NCBI RefSeq assembly: GCF_004331955.1
Contig: NZ_CP036532.1
Coordinates: forward strand, 3,435,501 to 3,499,500
Direction of reading: 5' to 3'
DNA from: Roseitalea porphyridii
Lineage (GTDB): Bacteria > Pseudomonadota > Alphaproteobacteria > Rhizobiales > Rhizobiaceae
DNA: 64,000 nt
How positions within the stretch are numbered: the first letter of the stretch is position 1; every line of letters begins with the position of its first letter. A program made the translations under genes and the position numbers. Shown one piece after another: positions 6,678-44,202 of the stretch. The notes under the pieces were generated by a model. That model saw only the letters and a program-made list of their open reading frames with translations, had not been told where the DNA came from and did no database searches.

Positions 6678-7091
6678 GACGGTCCATCGCGCGGGCCGCA
6701 CACCGGCATCCAACGGGCGACGACGGGCGACCGATTGTCGCGCCGCCGGCAGCCGCGATCCGCTGCGGTCGCGGGCGCGCGACCTGCCGTGCCACGGGCC
6801 CGCGCCGCCTCCCGGGCCACCGATCGGCCGACAGGGGTTGACCTCAGCGTCCGGGCTGACATGCTTAAGGCATGGGCAACGGAGCGCGTATCACTCGCAC
6901 GACCGAACAGAAGGTGTTGCGCCGGATTCGACCGGCGCGGCGTTTCCGGTCGAATCTCGCGCTTCCGGTGGAACGACCACCGGCACTCTAGCGTTTCCCC
7001 AGCGGCGCCCGCCGCGCAGACCTTCCGCACGACTGGCTGGTCGCGCTTGAGCGCAGGTGCCGGCACGTTTCAACCTCAACCGGAGATCAAA
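6678..7091. other. Long intergenic region ahead of the osmoprotectant transporter
   Basis: I find no convincing gene in these 414 bases. They should hold the promoter of the ABC transporter. A possible -35 TTGACC is at 6838-6843, with a weak -10 candidate TGCTTA at 6862-6867. A short palindrome (CATGC, five bases, GCATG) at 6860-6874 overlaps it and could be an operator. The remainder is GC-rich, with open frames in several phases that look like compositional artefacts. Confidence 0.35.
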
Positions 7092-8063
7092 ATGCGAAAA
7101 CTCGCAGTTAGTACGTTTATCGGCGCGGCCATGCTGCCGGCCGCTGCCTTCGCCCAGGACGGCGAATGCGGCGAGGTGTCGATCACCGAGATGAACTGGG
7201 CATCGGCCGCCATCGTCACGCAGGTCGCCAACTTCATCATGGAACAGGGCTATGGATGCGACGTCACCATCGTTCCCTCCGACACCACCCCGGCGGTGAC
7301 ATCCGTCGCCGAGAACGGTGAGCCCGACATCCTGACCGAGCTGTGGCCCAACTCGACCGGCGAGGTCTACGAGACCATGATCGAGGACGGCAAGATCGAG
7401 GTCGTCGCCGACGTGCTCGATCCGGGCGGCCTCGAAGGCTGGTGGATCCCGACCTACCTCGCCGAGCAGAACCCCGAACTGACCACCCTCGAGGGCATTC
7501 TGAACAACCCCGAAGCCGTTGGCGGCACGTTCAACAACTGCCCGGACGGCTGGGGCTGCCGCATCGTCAACGACAATCTGATCCGCGCGATCGGCGTCGA
7601 GGACGAGGGCATCGAAGTGTTCAACCACGGTTCGGGCGAGACGCTCGCCACGTCGATGGCTTCGGCCGTCGAGAGCGAAGAACCCTGGTTCGGCTATTAC
7701 TGGGGCCCGACCGTGCCGCTCGGCAAGTACGACATGACCCGGGTGGACCTCGGCGAAGTCAAGCCGGACGTGCATGCGGCCAACGGCAACCCCGACACGC
7801 CCGATCCGCAGGTCTCCGACTTCCCGGCCGCGCCGATCCTGACGGTCGTGACCAGCGACTTCCGCGAACGTGAGCCGGACGTGGTCGAGTTCCTGTCGAA
7901 CATGACGTTCCAGACCGACACGATGAGCGCGCTTCTGGCCTGGCAGGACGAGAACAACGCTTCCGCCGAGGAAGCTGCGGTCTACTTCCTGCAGAACAAC
8001 ACCGAAGCATGGTCGGGCTGGATCAACGACGCAGCGCGCCAGAACCTCTCGGGTCTCCTGTAA
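7092..8063 (+). CDS. proX: Glycine betaine/proline-type ABC transporter substrate-binding protein
   Basis: Periplasmic binding protein that delivers a quaternary-ammonium osmolyte (probably glycine betaine or proline betaine) to the membrane complex encoded next. The 323-aa precursor starts MRKLAVSTFIGAAMLPAAAFA, a signal peptide with cleavage expected after AFA, before QDGECGEV. The mature part is OpuAC/ProX-like, with several tryptophans suited to cation-pi binding of a trimethylammonium group (EMNWASA, LEGWWIPTY, EPWFGYYWGP). Cysteines in pairs (GECGE, YGCDV, NNCPDGWGC) suggest disulfides. A strong hairpin terminator follows, which may keep binding-protein message above that of the permease. 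Exact substrate unproven. Confidence 0.85.
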   Translation: MRKLAVSTFIGAAMLPAAAFAQDGECGEVSITEMNWASAAIVTQVANFIMEQGYGCDVTIVPSDTTPAVTSVAENGEPDILTELWPNSTGEVYETMIEDGKIEVVADVLDPGGLEGWWIPTYLAEQNPELTTLEGILNNPEAVGGTFNNCPDGWGCRIVNDNLIRAIGVEDEGIEVFNHGSGETLATSMASAVESEEPWFGYYWGPTVPLGKYDMTRVDLGEVKPDVHAANGNPDTPDPQVSDFPAAPILTVVTSDFREREPDVVEFLSNMTFQTDTMSALLAWQDENNASAEEAAVYFLQNNTEAWSGWINDAARQNLSGLL

Positions 8064-8092
8064 GGGCGCACTTGCGCATCCCGACACCATGG

Positions 8093-8127
8093 ACAGGGCC
8101 GGCTTCGGCCCTGTTCGCTTTTGTTTG
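8093..8127 (+). terminator. Hairpin terminator/attenuator after the binding-protein gene
   Basis: A perfect 9-bp stem, ACAGGGCCG (8093-8101) and CGGCCCTGT (8106-8114), with a GCTT loop, is followed by a T-rich tail (TCGCTTTTGTTTG). It lies between proX and the permease of the same operon, so partial termination could set their ratio. Confidence 0.7.
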
Positions 8128-8167
8128 AAACGGGGAGCGCCGGGCCGAAGCGGCCGGCGCCTGATTG

Positions 8168-9208
8168 ATGGCAACATATGATTTCGTTTTCGACGCGCTT
8201 GGCTTGCGCGGGTGGTGCGACGCGGGCGCCTCACAGGCTCCAGCCTCGATGGCCGATCTGCTCGCACAGGCCCAGGGCGCCGATGCGCCGGCTCCCTCCT
8301 TGTGGGAGCTTCCCTTTCCCTCGCTCGACGCCCTTAACGAGGCGTGCGGGCGCGTTCCGCAGTCCCGCGACCTGACCCAGGGCCTCGAGCAGGGCTTTCT
8401 CGACGTCAAGGACGCGCTGTCGCTGGTTCTCGACCCGCTGACGCAGCCCCTGAGCTGGATGCTGAGCGGCGCGCTCTACACGATCCTCAACACGCCCTGG
8501 TGGATCGTCATTCCGTTCCTGCTGGCCGTCACCTTCTTCGTCGCCCGCTCCTGGAAGCTGGTCGTCTTCGTCGGCGTGTGCATCGGCTTTCTCGCCTTCA
8601 TCGACCATTACGACTACGCCATGCAGACGCTGGCGATCATCTTCGTGTGCGCCTTCCTGTGCGTGCTCCTGGGTGTTCCCATCGGCATCGGCATGTCGCG
8701 CTCGGACGCGATGCAGCGCGGGGTCATCCCGATCCTCGACATGCTGCAGACGCTGCCGCCCTTTGTCTATCTCATTCCGCTTATCTTCCTGTTCAGCGTC
8801 ACTGAACCCAAGCTCTACGGCATCGCCATCATCCTTTACGCCATCGTGCCGGTGATCCGCCTGACCGACCTCGGCATCCGGCTGGTCGATCCGGCCGTGA
8901 TCGAGGCGGCCGACGCGTTCGGCATGACCGACCGGCAGAAGCTGTTCGGCGTGCAGATCCCGCTGGCGCTGCCCAACATCATGGCCGGCGTCAACCAGAC
9001 GATCATGATGAGCCTCGCCATGGTCGTGATCGCCTCGCTGGTCTCGGCGCCGGGCCTTGGCGTGCTGGTGCTGCGCGGCATCCGCAACCTCGAACTGGGC
9101 GTCGGCCTTGTCGCCGGTCTGGGGATCGTGCTTCTGGCGATCATCCTCGATCGGGTCACCAAGGCGTCCCTTGCCCGCGTGAACGCGGCGCAGAAGGCGG
9201 GAGGCTGA
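8168..9208 (+). CDS. proW: Glycine betaine/proline-type ABC transporter permease
   Basis: Inner-membrane permease of the osmoprotectant importer. The 346-aa protein has a roughly 90-residue hydrophilic N-terminal extension, then a membrane domain with about six or seven segments. The binding-protein-dependent transport motif (EAA loop) is at EAADAFGMTDRQKLFGVQIP. ProW/OpuAB features such as DMLQTLPPFVYLIP and GIRNLELGVGLVAG are present. I prefer the ATG at 8168 to the TTG immediately before it. The ATPase gene starts 3 bases after its stop. Confidence 0.87.
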   Translation: MATYDFVFDALGLRGWCDAGASQAPASMADLLAQAQGADAPAPSLWELPFPSLDALNEACGRVPQSRDLTQGLEQGFLDVKDALSLVLDPLTQPLSWMLSGALYTILNTPWWIVIPFLLAVTFFVARSWKLVVFVGVCIGFLAFIDHYDYAMQTLAIIFVCAFLCVLLGVPIGIGMSRSDAMQRGVIPILDMLQTLPPFVYLIPLIFLFSVTEPKLYGIAIILYAIVPVIRLTDLGIRLVDPAVIEAADAFGMTDRQKLFGVQIPLALPNIMAGVNQTIMMSLAMVVIASLVSAPGLGVLVLRGIRNLELGVGLVAGLGIVLLAIILDRVTKASLARVNAAQKAGG

Positions 9209-9211
9209 CCG

Positions 9212-10279
9212 ATGAGCGACGACGTCAAGATCCGCATCCGCAACCTCTACAAGATCTTCGGCGAGGACCCGGCGACGGCCCTGGAGGCCGTCCGGGGCGG
9301 CATGGGCAAGCCCGAACTGCTGCGCGAGACCAACCACGTGCTCGGGCTTTCCGACATCAATGTCGACATCAAGGACGGTTTGACGACCGTCATCATGGGC
9401 CTTTCGGGCTCGGGAAAGTCGACGCTGATCCGGCACCTGAACCGGCTGATCGAACCGACCGCCGGCGAGGTTCTCGTCGACGGCGAGGACATTCTCGAAT
9501 ACGGGCCCTCGCAACTGCGCGACCTCAGGCGCCGGCGCATGTCGATGGTGTTCCAGAAGTTTGCGCTGCTGCCGCACCGCACCGTTCTGGAGAACGCCGC
9601 GATGGCGCTGGCCGTCAGCGGCGTCGATCGGGCCGACTATGAGAAGGAAGCCAACAAATGGCTCGACCGGGTCGGGCTGGAAGGCAACGCCAATCTCTAT
9701 CCGCACCAGCTCTCGGGCGGCATGCAGCAGCGCGTCGGCATCGCGCGGGCGCTCGTCTCCAATTCCGAGGTCATGCTGATGGACGAGGCGTTTTCGGCGC
9801 TCGATCCGCTTATCCGCACCGACATGCAGGACCTGCTGGTCGAATTGCAGGCCGAACTGCAGAAGACGGTCGTGTTCATCACGCACGACCTCGACGAGGC
9901 GCTCAAGCTGGCCGACCATCTGGTCATCCTCAACGAGGGCGAAGTGGTCCAGCAGGGCGAGCCGCAGCACATCCTGCTGCATCCGGCCGATCCCTACATC
10001 GAGGACTTCGTCTCCGACATCAACCGCGCGCGCGTGCTCAAGGTGCGCTCGGTGATGACCCGCGACGGCGGCCCCTCGGGCAAGGACGTCGCCGGCGAGA
10101 TCGACCAGGAGGCGACGCTCGAGGACGTGATCAGCATCTCCGAAGGCGACATCTCCAAGAACTACCGGGTCACCAAGGACGGCGAACCGGTCGGCACGCT
10201 GAAGATGAAGGACCTCGTCAAGGCGCTGGTGCCGACCAAGGCCTCGGAGAACGGCATCCGCATGAAGATGAGCGCGTAA
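9212..10279 (+). CDS. proV: Glycine betaine/proline-type ABC transporter ATP-binding protein
   Basis: ATPase of the importer. The 355 aa contain the ProV-type N-terminal block (LYKIFGEDPATALEA), Walker A GLSGSGKST, Q-loop VFQKFALLPHRTVLEN, signature LSGGMQQR, Walker B VMLMDEAFSALD, and the switch His in ITHDLDEAL. The C-terminal 80 residues correspond to only part of the CBS region that follows the ATPase in longer ProV proteins. It carries DQEATLEDVISI and DGEPVGTLKMKDLV, so ionic-strength sensing may differ. It is the last gene of the unit and is followed by a terminator. Confidence 0.9.
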   Translation: MSDDVKIRIRNLYKIFGEDPATALEAVRGGMGKPELLRETNHVLGLSDINVDIKDGLTTVIMGLSGSGKSTLIRHLNRLIEPTAGEVLVDGEDILEYGPSQLRDLRRRRMSMVFQKFALLPHRTVLENAAMALAVSGVDRADYEKEANKWLDRVGLEGNANLYPHQLSGGMQQRVGIARALVSNSEVMLMDEAFSALDPLIRTDMQDLLVELQAELQKTVVFITHDLDEALKLADHLVILNEGEVVQQGEPQHILLHPADPYIEDFVSDINRARVLKVRSVMTRDGGPSGKDVAGEIDQEATLEDVISISEGDISKNYRVTKDGEPVGTLKMKDLVKALVPTKASENGIRMKMSA

Positions 10280-10289
10280 GAGGGGCCGG

Positions 10290-10322
10290 GGCGCTTTTCA
10301 TCGGTGAAAGGCGCCTTTCGTT
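10290..10322 (+). terminator. Rho-independent terminator of the osmoprotectant operon
   Basis: The stem GGCGCTTTTCA (10290-10300) pairs with TGAAAGGCGCC (10305-10315) with one G-T wobble, across a TCGG loop. A short T run (TTTCGTT) follows. It begins 11 bases after the proV stop. Confidence 0.65.
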
Positions 10323-10390
10323 CCCTCGCGTAGGCGGGGCGCGACGCGGCGGCTATGGTCATGCGCAATCGCGCATGAACAGGAGCCCCC

Positions 10391-11440
10391 GTGTCAGACA
10401 AACCCGATGAAACGACGATGCCGACGCGCCCGCTCGGCGCCAACGGCCCGCTGATCTCGCAGCTTGCCCTTGGAACGATGACGTTCGGCGCCGAGACCGA
10501 CGAACCGGAGGCCTGCGCGCAGCTCGACCTGTTCGTCGAACGCGGCGGCACGCTGATCGACACCGCCGATGTCTACGCCGCGGGCGCATCCGAGGCGATC
10601 ATCGGCCGCTGGGGCCGCGCACGCGGCGGCATGGACGATCTGGTCGTCGCCACCAAGGCGCGCTTCGGGCCGCCGCCGGGCAGTCGCGGCGCCTCGCGCC
10701 GGGCGATCAGGCGCTGTCTCGACGCCAGCCTGAACCGGCTGCAGGTCGAGGCGGTCGATCTGTATTTCATCCATGGCTGGGACCGACACACCGAGATCGA
10801 GGAGACCCTCTCGACGCTCGGCGATCTGGTCGCCGCCGGACGCATCCACAACATCGCCTGGTCGAACCTGACCGGTTGGCAGTTGCAGAAGATCGTCTCG
10901 ACGGCGCGCGCCGGCGGCTATCCGGTGCCGGTCGCCGTGCAGCTGCAATACAATTTGCTCGAGCGCGGCGCGGAGATCGAACTGCTGCCCTGCTGTCTGG
11001 AGGCCGGAATCGCGCTGACGCCCTGGTCGCCGCTCGGCGGCGGCTGGCTGACCGGCAAATACGGCGCGGACGCGCGCCCCACCGGGGCGACACGTCTCGG
11101 CGAGGATCCCGACAGGGGCGTCGAGGCCTATGACCGCCGCAACACGGAGCGCACCCATGCGATCGTCGATGCCGTACGCACGGTCGCCGGGCGTCATGGC
11201 CGCCCGCCCGCGCACGTGGCGATCGCCTGGCTGCTCGCGCGTCCCGGCGTCGCCGCGGTTCTGCTCGGCGCACGCACGGCGGAGCAACTCGCCGACAATC
11301 TGGACGCGGTCGATCTTTCGCTCGATCCCGGGGACATGGAGACGCTGACCAGTGTCTCCGCGCAGGGCCTGCCGTCCTATCCCTACGGGTTCGTCCAGGA
11401 CTGGTCGGGCCTCGACATCTGGCGGCGGCTCGGCACTTGA
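10391..11440 (+). CDS. Aldo/keto reductase
   Basis: NAD(P)H-dependent oxidoreductase of the aldo/keto reductase superfamily, 349 aa. The catalytic tetrad is visible: Asp57 and Tyr62 in DTADVYAAG, Lys89 in VATKA, and His128 in LYFIHGWD. The C-terminal cofactor-binding region includes TPWSPLGGGWLTGKYG and VLLGARTAEQLADNL. This resembles the YajO/IolS-like bacterial AKRs that use small carbonyl substrates; the substrate is unknown. The GTG start at 10391 has AGGAG 5 bases upstream. It appears monocistronic. Confidence 0.85.
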   Translation: MSDKPDETTMPTRPLGANGPLISQLALGTMTFGAETDEPEACAQLDLFVERGGTLIDTADVYAAGASEAIIGRWGRARGGMDDLVVATKARFGPPPGSRGASRRAIRRCLDASLNRLQVEAVDLYFIHGWDRHTEIEETLSTLGDLVAAGRIHNIAWSNLTGWQLQKIVSTARAGGYPVPVAVQLQYNLLERGAEIELLPCCLEAGIALTPWSPLGGGWLTGKYGADARPTGATRLGEDPDRGVEAYDRRNTERTHAIVDAVRTVAGRHGRPPAHVAIAWLLARPGVAAVLLGARTAEQLADNLDAVDLSLDPGDMETLTSVSAQGLPSYPYGFVQDWSGLDIWRRLGT

Positions 11441-11489
11441 AGCCGGTCTGACGCGCGCAAGGCGATCGGTCGCCGGACGTTGGCGGGGC

Positions 11490-12017
11490 CTACCCCTTGG
11501 CGCGGTCGATCGCCTCCAGGATCAGCCGTTCGGCGGTCGCCTTGTCCTGCCAGCCGCCCAGCTTGACCCACTTGCCGGGCTCGAGATCCTTGTAGTGCTC
11601 GAAGAAATGCTCGATCTGCTGCAGGGTGATCTCGGGCAGGTCGGTGTAGTTCGTCACCGCGTCGTAGCGCTTGGTCAGCGCGTGCGAGGGCACGGCGATC
11701 ACCTTTTCGTCCTGGCCCGAATTGTCCTCCATCAGCATCACGCCGATCGGCCGCACATTGATCACGCAGCCGGGCACGAGCGGGCGCGTGTTGCACACCA
11801 GAACGTCGATCGGATCGCCGTCCTCGGACAGGGTGTGGGGCACGAACCCGTAGTTTCCCGGATAGGACATGGGCGTATGGAGGAACCGGTCGACAACGAG
11901 CGTGCCGGCCTCCTTGTCCAGTTCGTACTTGATCGGCTGGCCGCCGAGCGGCACTTCGATGATGACGTTGACGTCCTCGGGCGGGTTCTCGCCGATGGAA
12001 ATGGCGTCGATGCGCAT
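11490..12017 (-). CDS. ppa: Inorganic pyrophosphatase (family I)
   Basis: Hydrolyses pyrophosphate to phosphate, pulling biosynthetic reactions forward, in the cytoplasm and with Mg2+. At 175 aa it has standard bacterial length. The family I signature DGDPIDVLV with its metal-binding aspartates is present, as are [11 protein letters not shown] and the C-terminal [17 protein letters not shown] block. The ATG at 12017 ([13 protein letters not shown]) has GGAGAG 4 bases upstream. The frame stays open upstream but the extra residues are not family-like. Confidence 0.93.
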
Positions 12018-12345
12018 GGGGCTCTCCGGGCTGGTGCTGGGCGGGTGATAGCGGCCATGGCGTTGCGCCGCAACACAGCCATTGGGCGGGGGCAGGCCAG
12101 TGGGTTCCTCCGGCACGCCCGCAAACGACGTCCCGACATGATTGGAATTATTCGCAGTATTTCCGGCACACCGTGATGAGAATCGCCTTTTCGTGAAATG
12201 CGTGCTTTTCATGATATTGATTCTGTGACACGCTTGCCGAGTATATCCTGACCTGAAATAGCCATGCATACCAATAGTTCCGGTTGCATGAGGTAGAAAA
12301 ATTCCATTGCGTCCGCATCGCGGGCGGAAGACGGGAGGGTTTGCC
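12018..12345. other. Divergent intergenic region, ppa / thiaminase homologue
   Basis: These 328 bases carry no gene that I can support. Roughly 12130-12310 is much AT-richer than the surroundings and should contain the thiaminase promoter, with the GGAGG ribosome-binding site at 12334-12338. I looked for the conserved parts of a TPP (THI-box) riboswitch on both strands and did not find them, so thiamine-dependent control by that route is not supported. Confidence 0.4.
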
Positions 12346-13848
12346 GTGAAGATACTCGCAAGAGCCTGCGGGCTCGTCCTTGCACTGATCCTGTTCGCGG
12401 CGCCCCAGAAGGCGTTCGCCCAGGATTGCAGCACGATCTGCACCGATGGCGAGACGTGCATCGCCGCCGGGCTCTATCCCTACGTGCCCGACACCGAGGC
12501 GTTCGCCTCGGCGATCTGTTCGGCATGGACGGCGGCCGGCCAGACCGAAAAGCTCTACCTGATCGCCGACGAGAACGTCTGGGACGGCGGCTACTCGTCC
12601 GATCCCGTCTACACCAACGGCAGCGGCACGCAGGTGCCGATCGACGTGTTCGTCTACGATGCGATGTATCTGCAATACTGGCAGACGCAGACGACGCCGG
12701 TGCCGGCCAGCGCGATCTCCGATGCGTCCGATTTCGTCTCCTATGCGAGCAAGGCGCTGACGCAGAACGATGGCAGCATGCTGGCCCTGCCCATGCTCGG
12801 CTGCACCAACATCATGTTCTACCACGACGATGACAGCGGCATGGACGGCGTGACCAGCCTGTCCGACTTCCTGTCGGTCAACCCGGCCGGCGTCTATATC
12901 AGTCCGGTGCCGTTCGACCGGACCGGCGCGATGATGAACATGTCCGGCAAGACCACGATCGCCGTCGACTACATGGTCAAGGGTCTGCTCGACAACGGCT
13001 CATGGCCGTCGATGAACCCGCTCGACCAGTCCATCATCGACGCGATGGCGCAGATCGCCGAGCGGGCGAGCTGGTACAACGCGCTCACCGGCGCCATCCC
13101 CTCCCTGCCCGGCGTCGAGGACCAGTATGTGCGCGCCGGCTATTTCAGCGAGGGCTATGGCCGCACCTCGATCGGCTTCTCCGAGAGCATGTCGCAGATG
13201 TCCGATGCCACGCGCGCCGGGCTCAAGCTGAGGGCCTTCCCGTGGACCGACACGGCCAACGCGCCCAACATGTTCTATTCCGACGTCGTCGGCGTGAACA
13301 ACGCCTCGACCTTCCTGAACGGCGGCGGCACGCTGCCCTTCACCCTGGCCAATCTGATGACCGAGCAGGCCGTCGTCCAGGACGCGATCGCGCCGCCCTC
13401 GGGCGAACTGTCCTACCTGTTCCCGGCCCGCAACAGCGTGCTCAACGCGCTCAGCGCACAGGACCCGCTCTATACGCAGATGGCGGCCGTGCTGAACGGG
13501 GCCGATTCTGTGCTCGTTACCATGCCGACCACCGACCGCGACGCCTTCCACAATTTCGGCGGTACGGTGGAGACGGCCGTGCGCGGAGCGTTCACCGGAA
13601 GCTGCGATCTGGAAAGCACGACCTTCCCCGGCTCGACCGCCGAGGCCCCGGCGATCTGCAGGCCGCTGTGCGCCAACAGCGGTGGCTGGGTCGGGTCATG
13701 GACCAACGAGGCGCCGCCCGCCTGGCCGGGCTATTCGGCCTGCGGCTGCGCGCAGTGCACGGCCGAGTCGCCGCTGCCGACGACCGTCCAGGAACCCTCG
13801 GCGATGATCATGTCGGGCCCGGCGCTCAGGCGCTACAACCGCAACTGA
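12346..13848 (+). CDS. Secreted thiaminase I (thiamine pyridinylase) homologue with Cys-rich C-terminal extension
   Basis: The protein resembles Paenibacillus thiaminolyticus thiaminase I, which cleaves thiamine by swapping the thiazole for another base. That enzyme has a periplasmic-binding-protein-like fold, with Cys113 as nucleophile and Glu241 as base. Matching blocks in order are YPYVPD (44-49), [10 protein letters not shown] (100-109), [12 protein letters not shown] (148-159, nucleophile candidate Cys153), [13 protein letters not shown] (261-273), IGFSESM (276-282, base candidate Glu280), [10 protein letters not shown] and [10 protein letters not shown] signal peptide ends AFA at residue 25, so it is exported. 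The GTG start has GGAGG 7 bases upstream. At 500 aa it is longer than the roughly 400-aa family norm: the last ~70 residues add six cysteines ([20 protein letters not shown]). No thiamine genes adjoin it. Family call strong; activity unproven. Confidence 0.85.
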
Positions 13849-13861
13849 CCTGGCCCGCACG

Positions 13862-13923
13862 GCCCCGAGCGGGGCTTGCGACTGTCTCGCTTCACCGTTC
13901 CGGACCAATGGTGCCGGAACGGT
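13862..13923. repeat. Inverted repeats between the thiaminase homologue and the hydrolase
   Basis: A small hairpin (GCCCC, GAGC loop, GGGGC) lies just after the thiaminase stop. A perfect 10-bp inverted repeat follows: ACCGTTCCGG at 13894-13903 and CCGGAACGGT at 13914-13923, with a 10-base spacer. There is no T run, so an operator or a weak terminator are both possible. Function unknown. Confidence 0.4.
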
Positions 13924-14026
13924 TCATCTTCCATCCGGAGATGGACCGTTCTAGAGCGTGGGGCGATGCGTCGGGTCATGGCTGTAAAGCCGTCGGACGC
14001 CGGGTGCCAGCTCAACGAGGACCAAC

Positions 14027-15085
14027 ATGCACTTTCGGACAAATGCACTGGCGGCGATCGCCGCTGCCATCACCATGCTGTTCGCGTTCCCGGCGACCGC
14101 CGGGGATCAGGCGGCCGGCGTGGCGCGGATCGCGGCCCCCGCGCCCGAGCGTGGCACCGATCTCGACGTGACCGTCTGGTATCCGGCTTCGTCCGGCGGC
14201 GAGACCCTCACGATCGGCGAGACCTTGTTCTTCAAGGGAACGCCGGCGATACGCGATGCGCCGGTCGCGGCAGGCCGGTTCCCGCTCGTCGTGCTGTCTC
14301 ACGGCGCCGGCCTTGGCGGGCGGGCCGAGGCGGCGAGTTGGCTCGCCGCGCCATTGGCCGAAGCGGGGTTCATCGTCGTCGCCCCCACCCATCCCGGCAA
14401 CACGGGCCCGGACCGGTCGGCGGAAGAAACGATGAAGCTCTGGCTGAGGCCGGCCGATCTTTCGGCGGCCATCGACGCCATCGTACAGGACACCACGTTC
14501 GCGGATCACATCGATGCCGGTTCCATTGGCGCTCTGGGTCTTTCGATGGGCGGCGGCAGCGCCCTGTCCGTCGTCGGGGCGCGTCTTCATCCGGAGCGTT
14601 TCGCGGCCTATTGCGACAGCGCCGACCGGAATGCCTCGCTTTGCGACTGGGTCCGCATGAGTGGCGTCGATCTGCACGCGTTCGATAAATCCCTCGTCGG
14701 CCGGGATAATCGCGACGACCGGGTCCGGTTCGCGATGGCGATCGACCCGGTTCCCGCCGACATCTTCGCCCCGGAGACGTTTTCCGGGATTTCGGTTCCC
14801 GTCGCGCTCGTGAACCTCGGCACGAAGAGCGGCATTCCCGAGACCGCGCGCGCATCGGCCATGGCGGACGCCATCGCCGGCGCCCGCTACACGGTCATCG
14901 AGGACGCCGGCCACTTTTCCATGTTCGGTGAGTGCAAGCCCGTCGCCGCAGGAACAGCTCTGGAGATGGGTATCGAGGACCCGATCTGTGACGATGGCGG
15001 GGGGCGTTCGCGTGCCGCGATCCATGCCGAACTGATCGACATGATCACCGCCGCATTCGAACGAGCACTCGCTCGGGAAGGCTGA
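14027..15085 (+). CDS. Secreted alpha/beta hydrolase (dienelactone-hydrolase/PAF-acetylhydrolase-like)
   Basis: The 352-aa precursor has a signal peptide (MHFRTNALAAIAAAITMLFA, cleavage near ATAGD). The alpha/beta-hydrolase core shows LDVTVWYPASSGGE, the oxyanion-region strand PLVVLSHGAGLGGR, the nucleophile elbow GLSMGGG, and a C-terminal AGHFSMFGEC that supplies the catalytic histidine. This layout is typical of periplasmic predicted dienelactone hydrolases with an esterase or lipase-like role; the substrate is unknown. It follows the thiaminase gene by 178 bases on the same strand, but the inverted repeats between them make a shared transcript uncertain. Confidence 0.78.
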   Translation: MHFRTNALAAIAAAITMLFAFPATAGDQAAGVARIAAPAPERGTDLDVTVWYPASSGGETLTIGETLFFKGTPAIRDAPVAAGRFPLVVLSHGAGLGGRAEAASWLAAPLAEAGFIVVAPTHPGNTGPDRSAEETMKLWLRPADLSAAIDAIVQDTTFADHIDAGSIGALGLSMGGGSALSVVGARLHPERFAAYCDSADRNASLCDWVRMSGVDLHAFDKSLVGRDNRDDRVRFAMAIDPVPADIFAPETFSGISVPVALVNLGTKSGIPETARASAMADAIAGARYTVIEDAGHFSMFGECKPVAAGTALEMGIEDPICDDGGGRSRAAIHAELIDMITAAFERALAREG

Positions 15086-15173
15086 GCCCCGCGCCGTGAT
15101 GGGTCCTTGCGGCACGGCAGGGACCGACAGCAGGACACGCGGGTCCGAAGGGCGTGAGTGGTTTCCGCCGGGA

Positions 15174-15680
15174 TCAGTCCCAGACGAAGGCGATCTTGGC
15201 CAGTTTGCGGCCGTCGAAATTCTCGGCGCCCTCGGCGACGGCGCGGCCGCCCTGGCCGCGATAGAAGTCGACGGCGCCGTCATTGTCGGCCAGCGCCCAG
15301 ACGACCAGCCCCTTGCAGCCATGGCTCGTCAGCCGCCCGCGCGCGGCCGCGAACAGGCGGGTGCCGAAGCCGACGCCCTGATATTCGGGCCGCAGGTAGA
15401 TCTCGTAGACCTCGCCGTCCTGCGGCAAGGCGCGGGCCCGATTGAGCCCGTAGGTGACGTAGCCGGCGATCAGCCCGCCAAGGTCGAGAACCATCACCGA
15501 GGTGCCGCGCCGGATCGCGCGTTGCCACCAGCGATGGTCGCGCCGACCGATCATCGTGCGCAATGCCTTGTAGGGAATGATCCCGGCATAGGCGTTCTGC
15601 CAGGCCGCCTCGTGCACCTCTGCGATCCCGGGCGCATCGCGCGGGTCTGCGGGGCGTATGTCGATCGTCAGGGCGGTCAT
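15174..15680 (-). CDS. GNAT family N-acetyltransferase
   Basis: The 168-aa protein has the complete GNAT fold signature: an N-terminal strand-helix IRPADPRDAPGIAEVHEAAW, the acetyl-CoA pyrophosphate-binding motif A as IYLRPEYQGVGFGTRLF (Q/RxxGxG/A, here QGVGFG), and motif B around NDGAVDFYRGQG. It resembles RimI-like acetyltransferases, but the acceptor is not predictable. Single gene, same strand as typA, 102 bases away. Confidence 0.82.
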   Translation of the reverse strand: MTALTIDIRPADPRDAPGIAEVHEAAWQNAYAGIIPYKALRTMIGRRDHRWWQRAIRRGTSVMVLDLGGLIAGYVTYGLNRARALPQDGEVYEIYLRPEYQGVGFGTRLFAAARGRLTSHGCKGLVVWALADNDGAVDFYRGQGGRAVAEGAENFDGRKLAKIAFVWD

Positions 15681-15782
15681 GATTTGTTAACCATCGCCCA
15701 GCGACGCCGCGCGGGCAAGCCCGTTTTCGGCCGGCCCGGGTCAATTTCACATTCTGTTGAGAGCGGCCCCGCCCCGGCGCGA

Positions 15783-17603
15783 TCAGGCGCTGGCGCGGGC
15801 CTTTTCGAAGCGCTTGCGCTCGTGCGGGTCCAGATGCAGCTTGCGCAGGCGGATCGATTTGGGCGTCACCTCGACCAGCTCGTCGTCCTGGATCCACGAA
15901 AGCGCGCGCTCGAGCGTCATCCGCACCGGCGGGGTCAGCTTGACCGCATCGTCCTTGCCTGCGGCGCGCACGTTGGTCAGCTTTTTGCCCTTGAGCACGT
16001 TGACTTCCAGATCGTTGTCGCGGCTGTGGATGCCGATGATCATGCCCTGATAGACCTTGGCGCCCGGGTCGATCACCATCGGCCCGCGATCCTCGAGGTT
16101 GAACAGCGCATAGGCGACCGCCTCGCCGGGCTCGTTGGCGATCAGCACGCCGTTCGTGCGGCCGGCGATCGGGCCCTTGTAGGGTGCATAGCCGTGGAAC
16201 AGCCGGTTCATGATCGCCGTGCCGCGCGTGTCGGTGAGCAGTTCGGACTGGTAGCCGATCAGCCCGCGCGTGGGCGCATGGAAGACGAGCCGAACCCGGT
16301 CGCCGCCGGACGGCTTGAGTTCGGCCATTTCGCCCTTGCGCTCGCTCATCTTCTGGACGACGGCGCCCGAATGCTCCTCGTCGACGTCGATGACCACTTC
16401 CTCGATCGGCTCGAGCAGCGTGCCGTCCTCGTCCTTCTGCATGACCACGCGCGGCCGCGAGACGGCCAGTTCGAACCCTTCGCGGCGCATCGTCTCGATC
16501 AGCACAGCAAGCTGGAGTTCGCCCCGGCCCGAGACGTGGAAGGCGTCCTTCTGGTCGGAATCCTCGATTTTTAGCGCCACATTGCCCTCGGCCTCCTTCA
16601 TCAGGCGGTCGCGGATGACGCGGCTGGTCACCTTGTCGCCCTCGGTGCCGGCGAGCGGGGAATCGTTGACGATGAAGCTCATCGTCACCGTCGGCGGGTC
16701 GATCGGCTGGGCAGCGAGCGGCTCGTCGACCTGCGGATCGCAGAACGTGTCGGCGACCGTGCCCTTGGAAAGGCCCGCAATGGCGACGATGTCGCCGGCC
16801 GCGCCCTCCTCGATCGGCTGGCGTTCGAGGCCGCGGAAGGCGAGGATCTTGGAGACGCGCCCGGTCTCCAGCGTCTTGCCGTCGCGGTCCATCACCTTGA
16901 CGGTCTGGTTCGGCCGGACCGTGCCCGAATGGATACGGCCGGTGATGATGCGGCCCAGGAACGGGTCGGCCTCGAGGATCGTGCCGATCATGCGGAACGG
17001 GCCGTCGGCGACGGCGGGCGCGGGCACATGGTCGAGCACCAGATCGAACAGGGGCGCGAGCGACGCCTCGTCGGGCCGGTCGGGTTCGGGCGCCATCCAG
17101 CCGTCACGGCCGGACCCGTACAGGATCGGAAAGTCGAGCTGGTCCTCGTCGGCGTCGAGCGCGGCGAACAGGTCGAACACCTCGTTGACGACCTCGTCGG
17201 CGCGCGCGTCCGGCCGGTCGATCTTGTTGACGGCGACGATCGGGCGGAGCCCGACCTTGAGCGCCTTGCCGACGACGAACTTGGTCTGCGGCATCGGACC
17301 TTCGGCGGCATCGACCAGCAGCACCGCGCCGTCGACCATGTTCAGGATGCGCTCGACCTCGCCGCCGAAATCGGCGTGGCCGGGCGTGTCGACGATGTTG
17401 ATGCGCGTGTCGCCCCAGGTGACCGAGGTCGCCTTGGCGAGGATGGTGATGCCGCGCTCCTTTTCGATGTCGCCGGAATCGAGGGCGCGTTCGGCGACGC
17501 GCTCGTTCTCCCGGTAGACGCCGGATTGTTTGAGGAGTTCGTCGACGAGCGTGGTCTTGCCGTGGTCGACATGCGCGATGATCGCGATGTTGCGAAGGGA
17601 CAT
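15783..17603 (-). CDS. typA: Ribosome-associated GTPase TypA/BipA
   Basis: Translational GTPase that binds the ribosome and helps 50S assembly and stress or cold adaptation. The 606-aa protein has the normal length. G1 is [10 protein letters not shown] (residues 10-19), the switch contains [10 protein letters not shown]3 is [11 protein letters not shown], and G4 is [12 protein letters not shown]-like domains III and V follow ([19 protein letters not shown]), then the TypA-specific C-terminal domain with [25 protein letters not shown]. Identification is secure. Confidence 0.96.
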
Positions 17604-17706
17604 GGATTGTCTCGGAGGTCAGGGGTGTTGCGGCGCATATAGGCGGCAAGCGGGACGATGGCCAGCATTATCGTCACGGCGCCGCCGGCACGGCCCGCGC
17701 CGACGA

Positions 17707-18468
17707 TCAGCCGCCGGCCACCGCCTCGCGCTCGAACACGATGTCGAGGAAATCGGCGAGCCACTGGCGGACCCGGTCGTCATAGTGAAGCCGGCCTTGA
17801 AGATGCTCGCGTCCCTTCTGCGCGCCGGGCAGATCGAACCGGTGCGCGCCGCGCACCACCCAGCGCTGCATCATCACCTGTGTCAGTTCGGCGTGGAACT
17901 GCACCCCCCAAGCGTTCTCGCCATAGCGGAACGCCTGGTTGGGATAGATGTCGGCGGTCGCAAGATGCGTGGCGCCCGTGGGCAGCGTGAATCCTTCGCG
18001 GTGGAACTGGTAGATCATCTCCGGCCAGTCCATCAGCGCGGCGCCCTCCTCGGTCGGCCGCAGCGGGTACCAGCCGACCTCGACCTGCCCTTCCTCGTGG
18101 CTTTCGACCGACCCGCCCAGATGATTGACCAGCATCTGCGCGCCCAGGCAAATGCCGAAGAACGGCTTGTTCTCCCTGAGCGGCACGGCCAGCCAGTCGG
18201 TCTCGCGCTTGACGAATTCGTCCGGATCGTTGGCGCTCATCGGCCCGCCGAACATCACCGCGCCGGCATGGTGCTCGAGCGTTTCGGGCAGAGGGTCGCC
18301 GAGCGGCGGCCGGCGAATGTCGAGCGCATGGCCGCGCGCCTCGAGCATCTGGCCCACGCGTCCGGGCGACGAGGTCGCCTGATGCAGGATGACCAGCACC
18401 GGCTTCTTCGCCGCATCCCGCGGCGCGCGCATGCCGGCCATCGTCGTCACTGCGGTGTCTGCCTTCAT
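17707..18468 (-). CDS. Class I glutamine amidotransferase domain protein (GMP-synthase-like)
   Basis: A stand-alone GATase1 domain of 253 aa. The catalytic triad is visible: Cys107 in FFGICLGAQ, and His192 with Glu194 in GVQFHAELT. The oxyanion loop is MFGGPMSAND. It resembles YfeJ/GuaA-like amidotransferases of unknown acceptor; relatives include gamma-glutamyl-polyamine hydrolases, so a role beyond glutaminase chemistry is possible. Its ATG overlaps the stop of the TerB-like gene (ATGA at 18465-18468), so the two are co-translated. Confidence 0.82.
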   Translation of the reverse strand: MKADTAVTTMAGMRAPRDAAKKPVLVILHQATSSPGRVGQMLEARGHALDIRRPPLGDPLPETLEHHAGAVMFGGPMSANDPDEFVKRETDWLAVPLRENKPFFGICLGAQMLVNHLGGSVESHEEGQVEVGWYPLRPTEEGAALMDWPEMIYQFHREGFTLPTGATHLATADIYPNQAFRYGENAWGVQFHAELTQVMMQRWVVRGAHRFDLPGAQKGREHLQGRLHYDDRVRQWLADFLDIVFEREAVAGG

Positions 18469-38615: not shown

Positions 38616-41600
38616 TCAATGAAAATCCCGGCTTTTCGGGATCACGCGCACATTGCGCGGATGCCGTCCGGCATGGCCCATCACCGGCCGTTTGACCTCG
38701 TCGGCGCGGGAGATTTCCGGCTCGAGCAGGTCTTCGGACAGCGCGGTCAGCCGGCCGGTCTCGTCGACGAGGTGCGTGGCGACGACATGGATGACGCCCT
38801 CGCTCGCCTGCACCGTGCCGTGCACCGCCATCAGCCGGGCGCCCATCACCACCTTGCGATATTGCTTCAGCACCTTCGGCCAGACCACCAGATTGGCCGA
38901 TCCGGTCTCGTCCTCGATGGTGACGAACACCACGCCCTTGGCGCTGCCCGGCCGCTGGCGGATCAGCACGATGCCGGCGACCGCGACGCGCGCGCCGAAG
39001 CGCTTGTCCCTGAGGTCGGCCGTGCGGATGAAGCCGCGCGCGGCGAGCGTCGCGCGCAGGAAGGACAGCGGATGCGCCTTCAGCGACAGCCGCACCGTCT
39101 GATAGTCGGCGACCACATGTTCGCTCAGCGGCATGGCCGGCAGCAGCGCCGGCGTGTCGGCGCCCTCGTCGGCCGCCTCGGCATGGGTGAAAAGCGGCAG
39201 GTCGGGCGCCGGCTTGATCGCGCGCGCGTCCCACAGCGCCGCGCGCCGGTCGCGGCCGACAGAGCCGAACGCGTCGGCTGCGGCGAGCAACTGGATGCCC
39301 CGCGCCGACACCCTGCCGCGTGACCTCAGTTCCTCGACGCTCTCATAGGGCCGGTCGCGACGGGCGATCAGCTTCGCCGCGTCTTCGGTGGCGAACCCGT
39401 CGATCTGCCGGAAGCCGAGCCGCACCGCGCAGACCCCCGGCGCGAGCGGTTCGAGCAGATTGTCCCACTCGGAGAAGTTGACGTCCGGCGGCAGCACGGT
39501 CACGCCGTGCTCGCGCGCATCGCGCACGATCTGCGCGGGCGCGTAGAACCCCATCGGCTGCGAGTTCAGCAGCGCCGCGCAGAAGGCCGCCGGATAGTGG
39601 CACTTCATCCAGCTGGACACATAGACCAGATGCGCGAAACTTGCCGCGTGGCTTTCGGGAAAACCATATTCGCCGAACCCCTCGATCTGCGAGAAGCAGC
39701 GCGCGGCGAATTCGGGATCGTAGCCGCGCTCGACCATGCGGCCGACCATCTTCTCCTTGTGCGCGGTCACCTGCCCGCGCGAGCGGAAGGTCGCCATCGC
39801 CTTGCGCAACTGGTTGGCCTCGACCGGCGAGAAACGCGCCGCGACCATGGCGATCTTCATCGCCTGTTCCTGGAAGATCGGCACGCCGAGCGTGCGGCCC
39901 AGAATGTTCTTCAGTTCGTCCGGATCGTGTTCCGGCCCGGGCGAGGGATAGATCACCGGTTCCTTCTTCGACCGGCGGCGCAGATAGGGATGGACCATGT
40001 CGCCCTGGATCGGGCCGGGCCGGACGATCGCCACCTCGATGACAAGGTCATAGAAGGTGCGCGGCTTCAGGCGCGGCAGCATGTTCATCTGCGCCCGGCT
40101 TTCCACCTGGAACACGCCGACCGAATCGGCCCGGCACAGCATGTCGTAGACGACCGGATCTTCCTTCGGCACCGAGGCCAGCGTCAGCGGCCGGTCGTAA
40201 TGCACCGCGATCAGTTCGAAACATTTGCGGATGCAGGTCAGCATGCCCAGCGCCAGCACGTCGACCTTGAAGATGCCGAGCGCGTCGATGTCGTCCTTGT
40301 CCCATTCGATGAAGCTGCGGTCGGCCATCGCGCCATTGCCGATCGGCACCGTCTCGACGAGCGGCTTCTCGGTCAGGATGAACCCGCCCACATGCTGGCT
40401 GAGGTGACGCGGCATGCCGATCAGCTCGTCGGCGAGCGCGATGGTGCGCTTCAGATGCGGATCGTTCAGGTCGAGCCCGGCCTCGTTGACATTGTCGCCA
40501 TCGACCGTCGAGCCCCACGACCCCCAGACCGTACGCGCCAGCGCCGAGGTCACGTCCTCGGACAGGCCCATCACCTTGCCCACCTCGCGCACCGCCATGC
40601 GCGGCCGGTAGTGGATCACCGTGGCGCACAGGCCGGCGCGGTCGCGGCCATATTTGTCGTAGATGTGCTGGATCACCTCCTCGCGCCGCTCGTGCTCGAA
40701 ATCGACGTCGATGTCGGGCGGCTCCTTGCGCTCCTCGGAGATGAAGCGCTCGAACAGCACATCGTGCTGGGCCGGGTCGACCGCGGTGATCTCGAGGCAA
40801 TAGCAGACCGCCGAATTGGCCGCCGAGCCGCGCCCCTGGCACAGGATGTCACGGCTGCGCGCAAAGCGGATGATCTCGTGGATGGTCAGGAAATAGCGGG
40901 CGATGTCGAGCTTGCCGATCAGCGCCAGTTCCCTTTCGACCGTCGCGCGCACATGGCCGGGCACCCCGTCCGGATAGCGCCGCGCCGCGCCCTGCCAGGT
41001 CAGTTCGGCCAGATAGCCGTCGACGGTCTTGCCCTCGGGCACGGTCTCGCGCGGATAGTCGTAGCGAAGCTCGTCGAGCGAAAACGTGCAGGCGTCCGCG
41101 ATGACCCGGCTCTCGGCGATCGCCTCGGGCCAGTCGGCGAAAAGGCGGGCCATCTCGGCCGGGCTCTTCAGGTGCCGCTCGGCATTGGCGTCCAGAAGCC
41201 GGCCGGCGGTGAAGATCGTCACCTTCTCGCGGATGCAGGTCATCACGTCCTGCAGCGGCCGCCGCGCCGGCGTGTGATAGTGCACGTCGTTTGTGGCGAC
41301 GAGCTTCAGCCCGAAGGTCCTTGCCAGTTCGGAAAGCCGGTTGATCCGCGCCCGGTCGTCGCCGCGATAAAGATGCGCGGCGGCGATGTGGCTGACCGGC
41401 AGCGCCTCGCGCAGACGCGGCAGGGAAGCGGCGAACGCGTCGAGCCGCGCGCCCGGCACGGCGATCAGCACCACATCGTCGACACCGCCCAGCGTTTCGG
41501 TGGCCATCGCCAGCGTGATGTCGCAGGCGCCCTTGTCCTGCCAGGCGCCGTCGACCGTGCGCATCTTGCCCGCCGACAACAGCCGGCACAGGCGCCCGTA

Positions 41601-41924
41601 GCCGGCGCGCCTCTTCGGATAGGCGAGCAGCGAGGACGCATCGACCAGATCGAGCCGGCAGCCGATGACCGGCCGCATCCGCGCGGTCCTCGCCTCGCCA
41701 TGCAGGCGGACGACGCCGGCCATCGTGTTGCGGTCGGCGATGCCGAGCGCGTCATAGCCGAGCGCGTGCGCGGTCAGCACCAGATCGACCGCGTCGGACG
41801 CCCCGCGCAGAAAAGAGAAATTGCTGGTCACGCCCAGTTCGACGAACGGGGCGGGCGCGTTGGGCGCAAATGTCCCCTCTTCGCCCAGGGTACGCTTGGC
41901 CGGGGTGAGCGGGGCTTCGGGCAT
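38616..41924 (-). CDS. dnaE2: Error-prone DNA polymerase DnaE2 (ImuC)
   Basis: Alpha-subunit-type polymerase of the SOS mutasome (ImuA-ImuB-DnaE2) that copies damaged DNA. The 1102-aa protein has an N-terminal PHP domain (VELGVTSNFSFLRGASDAV, then GYDALGIADRNTMAG), the polymerase core with the catalytic PPDIDVDFEHERR aspartates, helix-hairpin-helix elements, and a C-terminal OB-fold (AGIVLIRQRPGSAKGVVF). It lies 3 bases after imuB in the damage-inducible operon. It lacks the extended C-terminus of replicative DnaE1, which supports the DnaE2 call. Confidence 0.94.
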   Translation of the reverse strand: MPEAPLTPAKRTLGEEGTFAPNAPAPFVELGVTSNFSFLRGASDAVDLVLTAHALGYDALGIADRNTMAGVVRLHGEARTARMRPVIGCRLDLVDASSLLAYPKRRAGYGRLCRLLSAGKMRTVDGAWQDKGACDITLAMATETLGGVDDVVLIAVPGARLDAFAASLPRLREALPVSHIAAAHLYRGDDRARINRLSELARTFGLKLVATNDVHYHTPARRPLQDVMTCIREKVTIFTAGRLLDANAERHLKSPAEMARLFADWPEAIAESRVIADACTFSLDELRYDYPRETVPEGKTVDGYLAELTWQGAARRYPDGVPGHVRATVERELALIGKLDIARYFLTIHEIIRFARSRDILCQGRGSAANSAVCYCLEITAVDPAQHDVLFERFISEERKEPPDIDVDFEHERREEVIQHIYDKYGRDRAGLCATVIHYRPRMAVREVGKVMGLSEDVTSALARTVWGSWGSTVDGDNVNEAGLDLNDPHLKRTIALADELIGMPRHLSQHVGGFILTEKPLVETVPIGNGAMADRSFIEWDKDDIDALGIFKVDVLALGMLTCIRKCFELIAVHYDRPLTLASVPKEDPVVYDMLCRADSVGVFQVESRAQMNMLPRLKPRTFYDLVIEVAIVRPGPIQGDMVHPYLRRRSKKEPVIYPSPGPEHDPDELKNILGRTLGVPIFQEQAMKIAMVAARFSPVEANQLRKAMATFRSRGQVTAHKEKMVGRMVERGYDPEFAARCFSQIEGFGEYGFPESHAASFAHLVYVSSWMKCHYPAAFCAALLNSQPMGFYAPAQIVRDAREHGVTVLPPDVNFSEWDNLLEPLAPGVCAVRLGFRQIDGFATEDAAKLIARRDRPYESVEELRSRGRVSARGIQLLAAADAFGSVGRDRRAALWDARAIKPAPDLPLFTHAEAADEGADTPALLPAMPLSEHVVADYQTVRLSLKAHPLSFLRATLAARGFIRTADLRDKRFGARVAVAGIVLIRQRPGSAKGVVFVTIEDETGSANLVVWPKVLKQYRKVVMGARLMAVHGTVQASEGVIHVVATHLVDETGRLTALSEDLLEPEISRADEVKRPVMGHAGRHPRNVRVIPKSRDFH

Positions 41925-41927
41925 GGT

Positions 41928-43481
41928 TCACGCGTCGAGCCCATGCACGAACCAGCGCGGCGGACCGTCGCGCCCGTCGCCGGGCAGCCCCTCGCGGAAG
42001 ATCCAGTAGCGCCGCCCTTCGGCATCCTCGACGCGGTAATAGTCGCGCAGCCGCGCGGTCGATTTCTCGCGCCACCATTCCGGCGCGATCCGCTCGGGCC
42101 CCTGGCTCCTGACGATGCGATGGGTCTGCCGCCGCCAGACGAGCTGCGCGGGCGGGCCGTCGGGCACCGCGTACAGCACCTGCGCCTCCTCGGGCCGGAC
42201 CAGGAGACGCAACGGGCGCGGCACCCCGTCCGCCGTCTCACCGGTGGGCACGATCACGCATTGCGTGCCCGCCGGCGCCAGCCCCTCGGCGCGCTCGGGC
42301 ACATGGCTGTCGCGGGCGACGGGCCTGAGCACCGCGCCGGGACCGAGCCGGGCGACCAGCCGATCGATCAGCCGCGCCAGATCGATGCTCTCGTCGGCCG
42401 CGCCCACGAGCGCCTGCTGCGCCGCGCCGAGCGCTTCGTGGACGACCGCGTCGAGCGTCATCGCATCGAGCCCGAAGCCGGTGTCGATCCGTTCGAGCCG
42501 GTCGCGGAACAGACGGCGCAGATGGGCCGGGTCGCGGCTCGGACGGCTGGTCGCGGCCTCCACGGACGAAGACCCGCCATCGGCGCGGTAGCCGGTCAGA
42601 AGCAGCCGCCGCGCGCCGAGCTGGCGCGTGTCCATCTGGCCGGTCAGATCATCGAGAAGGCGATCCAGCACCGGGCCGATCGCCTCGACCTCGGTGACCG
42701 GCTCGGCAAAGCGGGCAAGCGCGCGCACCGGCGCGGGCACGTCGTCGGGCATCAGCGGCTCGGCCAGCCGGCCGAACGCCTGATCGAGCCTGAGCGGCGG
42801 ATTTGAGGGCAGGTCGTTCCTGTGCCGGAAGCGGCGGGCGAGCGCGGTGCGCGGCACGCCGGCGACCGCGCCGACCGTTTTCAGGCCGAGGCGCTTAAGA
42901 AGCAGCACCGTGTCCGCGTCCAGCCGCAGCGCCGCGACCGGCAGCGGGCCGAGCCTTTCGGCAAGAGCGTCGGCTCCGCAAAGTTCGCGCGGGGCGGCGC
43001 CGAAGCGCGCCAGCGCCCAGGCCGCGCCGAGCGTCGGCGCGACGGCGACGCGCGCGGTCAGGTCGAGCCCGGCGAAGGCGCGGCGCATCTGCGCCAGCAT
43101 CGCCGCCTCGCCGCCCCACAGATGATCGGACCCGGTCGTCTCCAGCATCAGCCCGTCGGCGCCGTCCACCCGCGTCCACGGACACCAGCGCTGCGCCCAG
43201 CGCGCGAGCGCGGAAAGCCGCGCCGCATCGGCCGCCATATCGGCGTCAGCGACATGCAGCGACGGCACCAGCGCCTTCATGTCGGTCAGCCGCGCGCCGC
43301 GCGTGATCCCGGCGCGGGCGGCCGCGCCGTTGACGTCGTGGACGAGACGGCCATGGGCGCCCTCGCGCGCCAGCACGAGCGGGGTCTGTTCAACCGGCGC
43401 GCCGGGGCCGCGCGTCCGGCGGCGCCAGCTCTGGATCGGAAAGTGCGGCAGATAGATCGAGACGATGCGTCTTTGCGTCAT
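41928..43481 (-). CDS. imuB: ImuB, Y-family-polymerase-like mutasome subunit
   Basis: A non-catalytic Y-family homologue that bridges DnaE2, ImuA and the beta clamp. The 517-aa protein begins RRIVSIYLPHFPIQSWRRR, where active Y-family enzymes carry a metal-binding aspartate. The Y-polymerase palm, fingers and little-finger pattern continues (ARAGITRGARLTDMKALVP; WCPWTRVDGADGLMLETTG; LKRLGLKTVGAVAG), then the ImuB C-terminal region (PLRLLVRPEEAQVLYAVPDGP). The missing acidic residues match the known inactivity of ImuB. Its start lies 92 bases inside the end of imuA. Confidence 0.92.
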   Translation of the reverse strand: MTQRRIVSIYLPHFPIQSWRRRTRGPGAPVEQTPLVLAREGAHGRLVHDVNGAAARAGITRGARLTDMKALVPSLHVADADMAADAARLSALARWAQRWCPWTRVDGADGLMLETTGSDHLWGGEAAMLAQMRRAFAGLDLTARVAVAPTLGAAWALARFGAAPRELCGADALAERLGPLPVAALRLDADTVLLLKRLGLKTVGAVAGVPRTALARRFRHRNDLPSNPPLRLDQAFGRLAEPLMPDDVPAPVRALARFAEPVTEVEAIGPVLDRLLDDLTGQMDTRQLGARRLLLTGYRADGGSSSVEAATSRPSRDPAHLRRLFRDRLERIDTGFGLDAMTLDAVVHEALGAAQQALVGAADESIDLARLIDRLVARLGPGAVLRPVARDSHVPERAEGLAPAGTQCVIVPTGETADGVPRPLRLLVRPEEAQVLYAVPDGPPAQLVWRRQTHRIVRSQGPERIAPEWWREKSTARLRDYYRVEDAEGRRYWIFREGLPGDGRDGPPRWFVHGLDA

Positions 43482-44202
43482 AGCCTGCTTCCCAGAGGCC
43501 CGGTTGAAGGTCGCGCGCGCGGAACAGTTCGGCCCGCCAGCGCGGCGGCCCGGGCGCGCGCGGATCGTAAGGATGGGCGAACGAAGGCCGGGCCGCGATG
43601 CGCCAGCGCCGCCGCGCCGCCGACAGGTTCGCCCGCGCCGAGAACCGGATCAGCACCGCGGCGGTGCCGGATCGCGCCGCGCGCATGGCCAGCCGCCGCG
43701 TGGCGGTGAAATCGAGCGCGGCCGGATCGCCCCAGACCTCGCCGATCACCGCGCCCATGCTGGCGCAGCCAAGGCCTTCCTCCATCGCCCAGAGCACGTC
43801 GCGCGCATCGCGCGCGCAGACCATGACGAGCCGGTCGGGATCGACCCCGAAGCGATGCAGGGCGCGGCCGTGCGGCCGGCCCGTCTCGAGCGCCGCCATG
43901 CGGTCCTGCACCCACAGGACCGGCCGGCCCGCCGGCAAGTGCGCCAGCGCGAAGCCGGTCGCCGCGCCGTCGCGCGGGGCGGCGAAGATCTCATCGAGAT
44001 GCGCGACGGCCGGAAGGCCGTCCCGTTCCACCACCCGCTCCGTACGGGCTGGCGAACCCGCCGGCTCAGGCGCTTGCCCTGTCTCAAGCGCCTGCCCTGT
44101 CTTCGGCGGCCGATGCGCGCGCTCCGCCGCACCGCCGGAGACGGCGCGCAAACGCGTCAAAAGCGCCTTGGCCGGCGCGGATGTGCGGAACCGTCCGTTC
44201 AT
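43390..44202 (-). CDS. imuA: ImuA, RecA-like mutasome subunit
   Basis: Partner of ImuB and DnaE2 in mutagenic repair, distantly RecA/SulA-related. The 270-aa protein has a Pro/Arg-rich N-terminus and then the ImuA core: FALAHLPAGRPVLWVQDRM, GRALHRFGVDPDRLVMVCA, WAMEEGLGCASMGAVIGEV and TATRRLAMRAARSGTAAVLIRF. The C-terminal block WRAELFRARDLQPGLWEAGYD is typical. An alphaproteobacterial LexA box lies 17 bases upstream of its start, so the operon should be DNA-damage inducible. It overlaps imuB by 92 bases. Confidence 0.9.
   Translation of the reverse strand: MNGRFRTSAPAKALLTRLRAVSGGAAERAHRPPKTGQALETGQAPEPAGSPARTERVVERDGLPAVAHLDEIFAAPRDGAATGFALAHLPAGRPVLWVQDRMAALETGRPHGRALHRFGVDPDRLVMVCARDARDVLWAMEEGLGCASMGAVIGEVWGDPAALDFTATRRLAMRAARSGTAAVLIRFSARANLSAARRRWRIAARPSFAHPYDPRAPGPPRWRAELFRARDLQPGLWEAGYDAKTHRLDLSAALSDPELAPPDARPRRAG

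Follow-up and report, generated by a model that had tools for sequence, protein, structure and literature searches.

Within a 64,000-nucleotide stretch of the Roseitalea porphyridii genome (assembly GCF_004331955.1, contig NZ_CP036532.1, positions 3,435,501 to 3,499,500; this whole stretch is called the window, and the genome that holds it G000), a gene at positions 12346 to 13848 encodes a protein that, on the sequence and fold features examined, is a member of the thiaminase I family. The protein carries a probable export leader and ends in a domain related to the Microcystis viridis lectin MVL, and its host appears to be a thiamine auxotroph; this fusion and the apparent auxotrophy of the host set it apart from known thiaminase I. 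Microbial secretion of an enzyme that breaks down a scarce vitamin still calls for an explanation, and where the thiaminase of fish food webs comes from, and why it is there, has been called relatively unknown (PMC10598016).

A thiaminase I family protein with a probable export leader

The following features describe the gene and the larger part of its product.

12346..13848 including stop, + strand: thiaminase I gene, 500 amino acids (open reading frame (ORF) list; TIGR04541 and PF22141 matches)
12333..12338, + strand: probable ribosome-binding sequence GGGAGG, 7 bases upstream of the GTG, read from the sequence
12346..12420, + strand: residues 1-25, by inspection a probable Sec signal peptide cut after AFA
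12457..13527, + strand: thiaminase I catalytic fold of the periplasmic binding protein type, about residues 38-394
12802..12804, + strand: Cys153 codon; the predicted nucleophile, opposite Cys113 of 2thi in the alignment
13183..13185, + strand: Glu280 codon; the predicted base, opposite Glu241 of 2thi in the alignment

According to the ORF list and translation the frame is unbroken from the GTG start codon at 12346 to the stop ending at 13848, and a longer version starting at the TTG at 12307 is possible. Its product matches TIGR04541 (thiaminase I / thiamine pyridinylase BcmE) with 209.8 bits against a cut-off of 175 (E 5.8e-62, profile positions 5-373 of 381) and PF22141 with an E-value of 2.5e-19, and by these E-values the family matches are not due to chance. 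An earlier, sequence-only reading had proposed a thiaminase I homologue in a GC-rich alphaproteobacterium, with Cys153 in LGCTN and Glu280 in SESM as the catalytic candidates. Both residues lie where it placed them, and in the phmmer alignment to 2thi of Paenibacillus thiaminolyticus they fall on chain residues 113 and 241 (hand count), the correspondence on which that reading had beforehand made its claim depend. The fold check that it had suggested also agrees, the catalytic domain resembling the thiaminase I structures 3thi and 4kys. Two curated family models, the alignment with solved thiaminases and the fold comparison thus bear the proposal out, and the protein is very probably a thiaminase I enzyme, with the fold, Cys/Glu pair and above-cut-off score of the Paenibacillus (2thi) and Clostridium (4kys) members. 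That this fold is common to solute-binding proteins would also suit a thiamine-binding protein that is no longer catalytic, or a role in transport; we regard this as highly unlikely, given that Cys153, Glu280 and the other named pocket residues are invariant in all 11 aligned homologues, that the genome has a separate ThiB and that, in a Pfam scan of the neighbours, no transporter gene directly adjoins the thiaminase gene.

By inspection, the leader combines a basic start and a hydrophobic core with the junction AFA|QDC, its A-x-A-Q/D-x-C pattern is common to the aligned homologues of the window clade, and the protein has no lipobox. Export is therefore predicted with high confidence from the leader. 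In being a predicted exported thiaminase I with a Cys/Glu pair, the protein resembles the myxobacterial CcThi1 family, whose CcThi1 differs in having a lipoprotein leader and travelling on vesicles (PMC10499793). The myxobacteria, together with the eukaryotic 4hcw (Naegleria according to PMC10499793), also extend the list of characterised sources, which the sequence-only reading had incompletely given as mainly Paenibacillus, Clostridium and Burkholderia.

The C-terminal domain

The most unusual part of the protein, a conserved C-terminal domain, had escaped the sequence-only reading.

13603..13758, + strand: MVL-type (mannan-binding lectin related) domain, residues 420-471, with six conserved Cys
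13759..13845, + strand: C-terminal tail, residues 472-500, ending RYNRN, an end kept only in the window clade

Both a profile-profile comparison and the fold relate this domain, of beta-alpha-beta-beta secondary structure, to MVL, and the thiaminase homologues in the genomes G053, G447 and G527 exceed the 25-bit Pfam threshold for PF12151. The window copy itself does not reach that threshold and gives no match up to E 10, the domain taken alone finds no match in Pfam or the Protein Data Bank (PDB), and the lectin domain is not directly detectable from the window sequence or from the window-clade sequences; it is thus related to MVL by profile and fold, yet its own score stays below Pfam MVL membership. 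The alignment of the window clade (A3) comprises six of its eight sequences, L050 and L051 being omitted as near copies of L049, and that of the non-thiaminase MVL matches (A4) seven of eight, the omission of L076, which is without the CxC end, favouring the MVL match. Taken together, an MVL-related fold is likely. The domain shares its fold and sequence pattern with MVL (PF12151, 1zhq) but differs in being single, Cys-rich, fused to an enzyme and, in the window copy, below model detection. Compared with 2thi and 4kys, it is an addition, as is the Cys-rich N-terminal stretch of the window protein. Titles and abstract starts of literature on thiaminase with lectin, carbohydrate-binding, Alphaproteobacteria or marine auxotrophs gave no sign of such a fusion, which does not prove its absence. 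Whether this putative binding domain tethers the thiaminase to glycans we judge to be evenly balanced. An MVL domain (60.2 bits) also ends a 403-amino-acid frame, L071, in genome G243, which by inspection reads as an exported nitrilase-type enzyme.

Thiamine economy of the host

Scoring of 150 out of 178 candidates gave a single thiamine pyrophosphate (TPP) riboswitch in G000. It is adjoined by thiB (357.7 bits, cut-off 317) and a ThiP-like permease gene (369 against the TIGR01253 cut-off of 395), which overlaps an ORF that reads by inspection as an ABC ATPase, and on its other side by a thiamine diphosphokinase gene (125.8 bits, cut-off 76.4). ThiC was matched in none of the five genomes of the genus and in one of the ten tested, against 13 of 14 control genomes, and ThiE exceeded its cut-off in only two of these ten (G527 and G296), against 11 of the 14 controls. 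As the simplest reading, these matches suggest a host that is auxotrophic for thiamine and relies on its import. The auxotrophy would be independent of the enzyme, because ThiC and an above-cut-off ThiE were likewise not matched in the three genus members without thiaminase.

G000 does hold a ThiE relative, L086 (47.6 bits), which is without the canonical R/K, N-D, H-L-G-Q and T-K positions, taken here to be substrate binding. Ten of the 13 ThiE matches were aligned; the three omitted are the G001 match, the G002 match and one of 24.9 bits in G527. Against the NCBIfam model NF005080 (thiamine phosphate synthase) L086 scores 216.2 with a cut-off of 218, a near miss by which it may still function as such a synthase. 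Together with its counterparts in G001-G004 (three of the five aligned) it makes up a conserved ThiE paralogue from which the usual substrate motifs are missing, and NF005080-type names on such paralogues may mislead predictions of auxotrophy. In G003 a second TPP riboswitch lies beside genes for a YkoF-type protein, a cobalt-type permease and an ABC ATPase (L064:5179-8817, - strand), a set that is likely a thiamine or hydroxymethylpyrimidine (HMP) importer.

This economy bears on salvage, in which thiamine and damaged analogues would be cut outside the cell, which would then take up the pyrimidine and the thiazole and join them again, a use reported for Burkholderia thailandensis (as related in PMC10598016). 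In the thiamine auxotroph P. thiaminolyticus, the thiaminase I gene shares an operon with thiM, thiD and thiE (PMC5627462). Some of our own results weigh on this side: two thiaminase-bearing genomes have no ThiC match yet a ThiE (G527) or a near-cut-off one (G1155, taken as Roseibium aquae; 140 against 145.1, with another ThiE model passed), and L086 itself comes near the NF005080 cut-off. However, four of the seven thiaminase-bearing genomes tested (G000, G004, G053, G447) have no ThiE match over the cut-off or with the canonical motifs. G1155 keeps a ThiE, unlike the window host, and P. thiaminolyticus retains thiM, thiD and thiE where the window host is without a recognised ThiC or canonical ThiE. 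Neither thiamine nor bacimethrin genes occur among the 39 window ORFs scanned with Pfam (38 of 53 other picked ORFs and one more, including the five nearest on each side), unlike in the Paenibacillus operon, and no Rfam family, hence no TPP riboswitch, matched at 8000-18000; the sequence-only reading was right that no thiamine genes adjoin the enzyme. Salvage as the main role is weakened by the missing ThiC match and above-cut-off ThiE in the host, and simple salvage is disfavoured because intact thiamine seems to be what the producer requires. We therefore hold it to be improbable.

The base exchange of thiaminase is reversible in principle. A reverse use, whereby free thiazole and a conjugate of the pyrimidine with a base are turned into thiamine in the periplasm and ThiBPQ imports the product, would fit an auxotroph that takes up thiamine whole and has no canonical ThiE, but unusual substrate concentrations would be required and nothing speaks directly in favour, which makes this very unlikely.

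Distribution of homologues

TIGR04541 was matched over its cut-off in two of five genomes of the genus, three of 199 of the family and four of 385 of the class, the own genome included each time. With the A2 profile, a homologue appeared in at least two genomes among 397 of the order and in at least one among 398 of the phylum, namely G000 itself, both being lower bounds since at most three candidates per genome were scored. Six relatives are 69-72% identical over the best segment and near full length (four from Roseibium/Labrenzia, two assigned only to Alphaproteobacteria) in a scan reaching close relatives only; the Roseibium/Labrenzia homologues L047, L048, L050 and L051 (69-71%) include the C-terminal domain and have other neighbours, e.g. 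a gene reading by inspection as bacterioferritin. The relatives in Hyphomicrobiales that the earlier reading wished to see sought extend to G1155, from the same order as the window but a different family; an order that includes R. aquae agrees with Hyphomicrobiales.

Weak matches that stay under the TIGR04541 cut-off (47 of 50 matching family genomes, 12 of 16 class genomes) were not counted as thiaminases: those listed cover only part of the model, and three of the 14 control genomes also match, none over the cut-off. Apart from L004 they are probably solute-binding proteins. L004:736-2379 (- strand; genome G008, same family) encodes a 547-amino-acid thiaminase-like protein (50.7 bits against 175) with an N-terminal extra region and, by inspection, a Cys in WLCSNF and a Glu in GFSEQS; it may be a distant thiaminase of another branch.

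Genomic neighbourhood

11490..12017, - strand: inorganic pyrophosphatase gene (ppa), PF00719; divergent, 328 bases away, probably unrelated functionally
14027..15085, + strand: alpha/beta hydrolase, PF00561; downstream neighbour

Transporter genes of glycine betaine type (6735-10276) are separated from the thiaminase gene by two others. In both carriers within the genus the thiaminase lies beside ppa (ppa of G004 by inspection), whereas G002, of the same genus, has near its ppa a hydrolase copy 84% identical, with another gene separating the two and the thiaminase missing; the thiaminase is thus an accessory gene at a stable place. A recent mobile insertion was rejected, since the third-position GC of the gene (0.90) is inside the range of neighbouring ORFs and the place beside ppa is shared by both carriers. 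The plasmid collection yielded only bcmE at 21.5% identity, in two records of Rhodococcus fascians D188. Reading the ORFs around homologues by inspection, without a Pfam scan, we saw no neighbours conserved across genera. Elsewhere in the window (38616-44202, - strand) a DNA polymerase III alpha gene lies next to one of ImuB type and another ORF that has no match in Pfam; we presume the polymerase to be DnaE2, in a cluster resembling the ImuA-ImuB-DnaE2 mutagenesis cassette.

Proposed role

The protein would be exported by Sec and cleaved after residue 25. By homology, its binding-protein-like fold would then take up thiamine, and Cys153, activated by Glu280, would attack the pyrimidine, so that the thiazole leaves and is replaced by a nucleophile from the surroundings. 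The MVL-type domain may bind glycans of the mannose/N-glycan-core kind and hold the enzyme there, be it on a eukaryotic neighbour, a matrix or the producing cell itself. Local removal of thiamine or its analogues could thereby affect partners or competitors. It would not serve thiamine synthesis in the producer, since no ThiC or canonical ThiE was recognised there and thiamine appears instead to enter whole through ThiBPQ and to be activated by thiamine diphosphokinase. We lean towards thiamine removal rather than salvage, and slightly favour this chain as a whole, with its ecological step kept broad.

Myxobacterial CcThi1 was shown to starve a thiamine-dependent oomycete, Phytophthora (PMC10499793), and by analogy the role would fit better with such denial to partners or competitors, or with the removal of antivitamins, than with salvage. 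Of the three roles proposed by the sequence-only reading, the scavenging of thiamine pieces is disfavoured by the lack of an above-cut-off ThiE that could join them and by the importer of intact thiamine. Protection of the producer, the enzyme destroying thiamine antivitamins (methoxythiamin, pyrithiamine etc.) before the importer takes them up, seems unlikely: pyrithiamine is described as a substrate of thiaminase I (PMC5627462), bacimethrin and methoxythiamin are set free by Microcystis (PMC12345177) and reliance on one importer would leave an auxotroph exposed, but thiamine needed by the cell would be destroyed too, and the Pfam scan of the neighbours revealed nothing that points to an antivitamin role.

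Conclusions

For thiamine removal held in place by glycans, we tentatively propose a more specific form, which we think rather unlikely as it stands: thiamine-auxotroph alphaproteobacteria would fix an exported thiaminase to mannose-bearing surfaces of eukaryotic neighbours, e.g. algae, and control the neighbour's thiamine locally while their own uptake is protected. Roseibium is a marine genus and often host-associated. With thiaminase and a lectin-type domain fused in a likely thiamine auxotroph, salvage and targeting become separate ideas that can each be tested.
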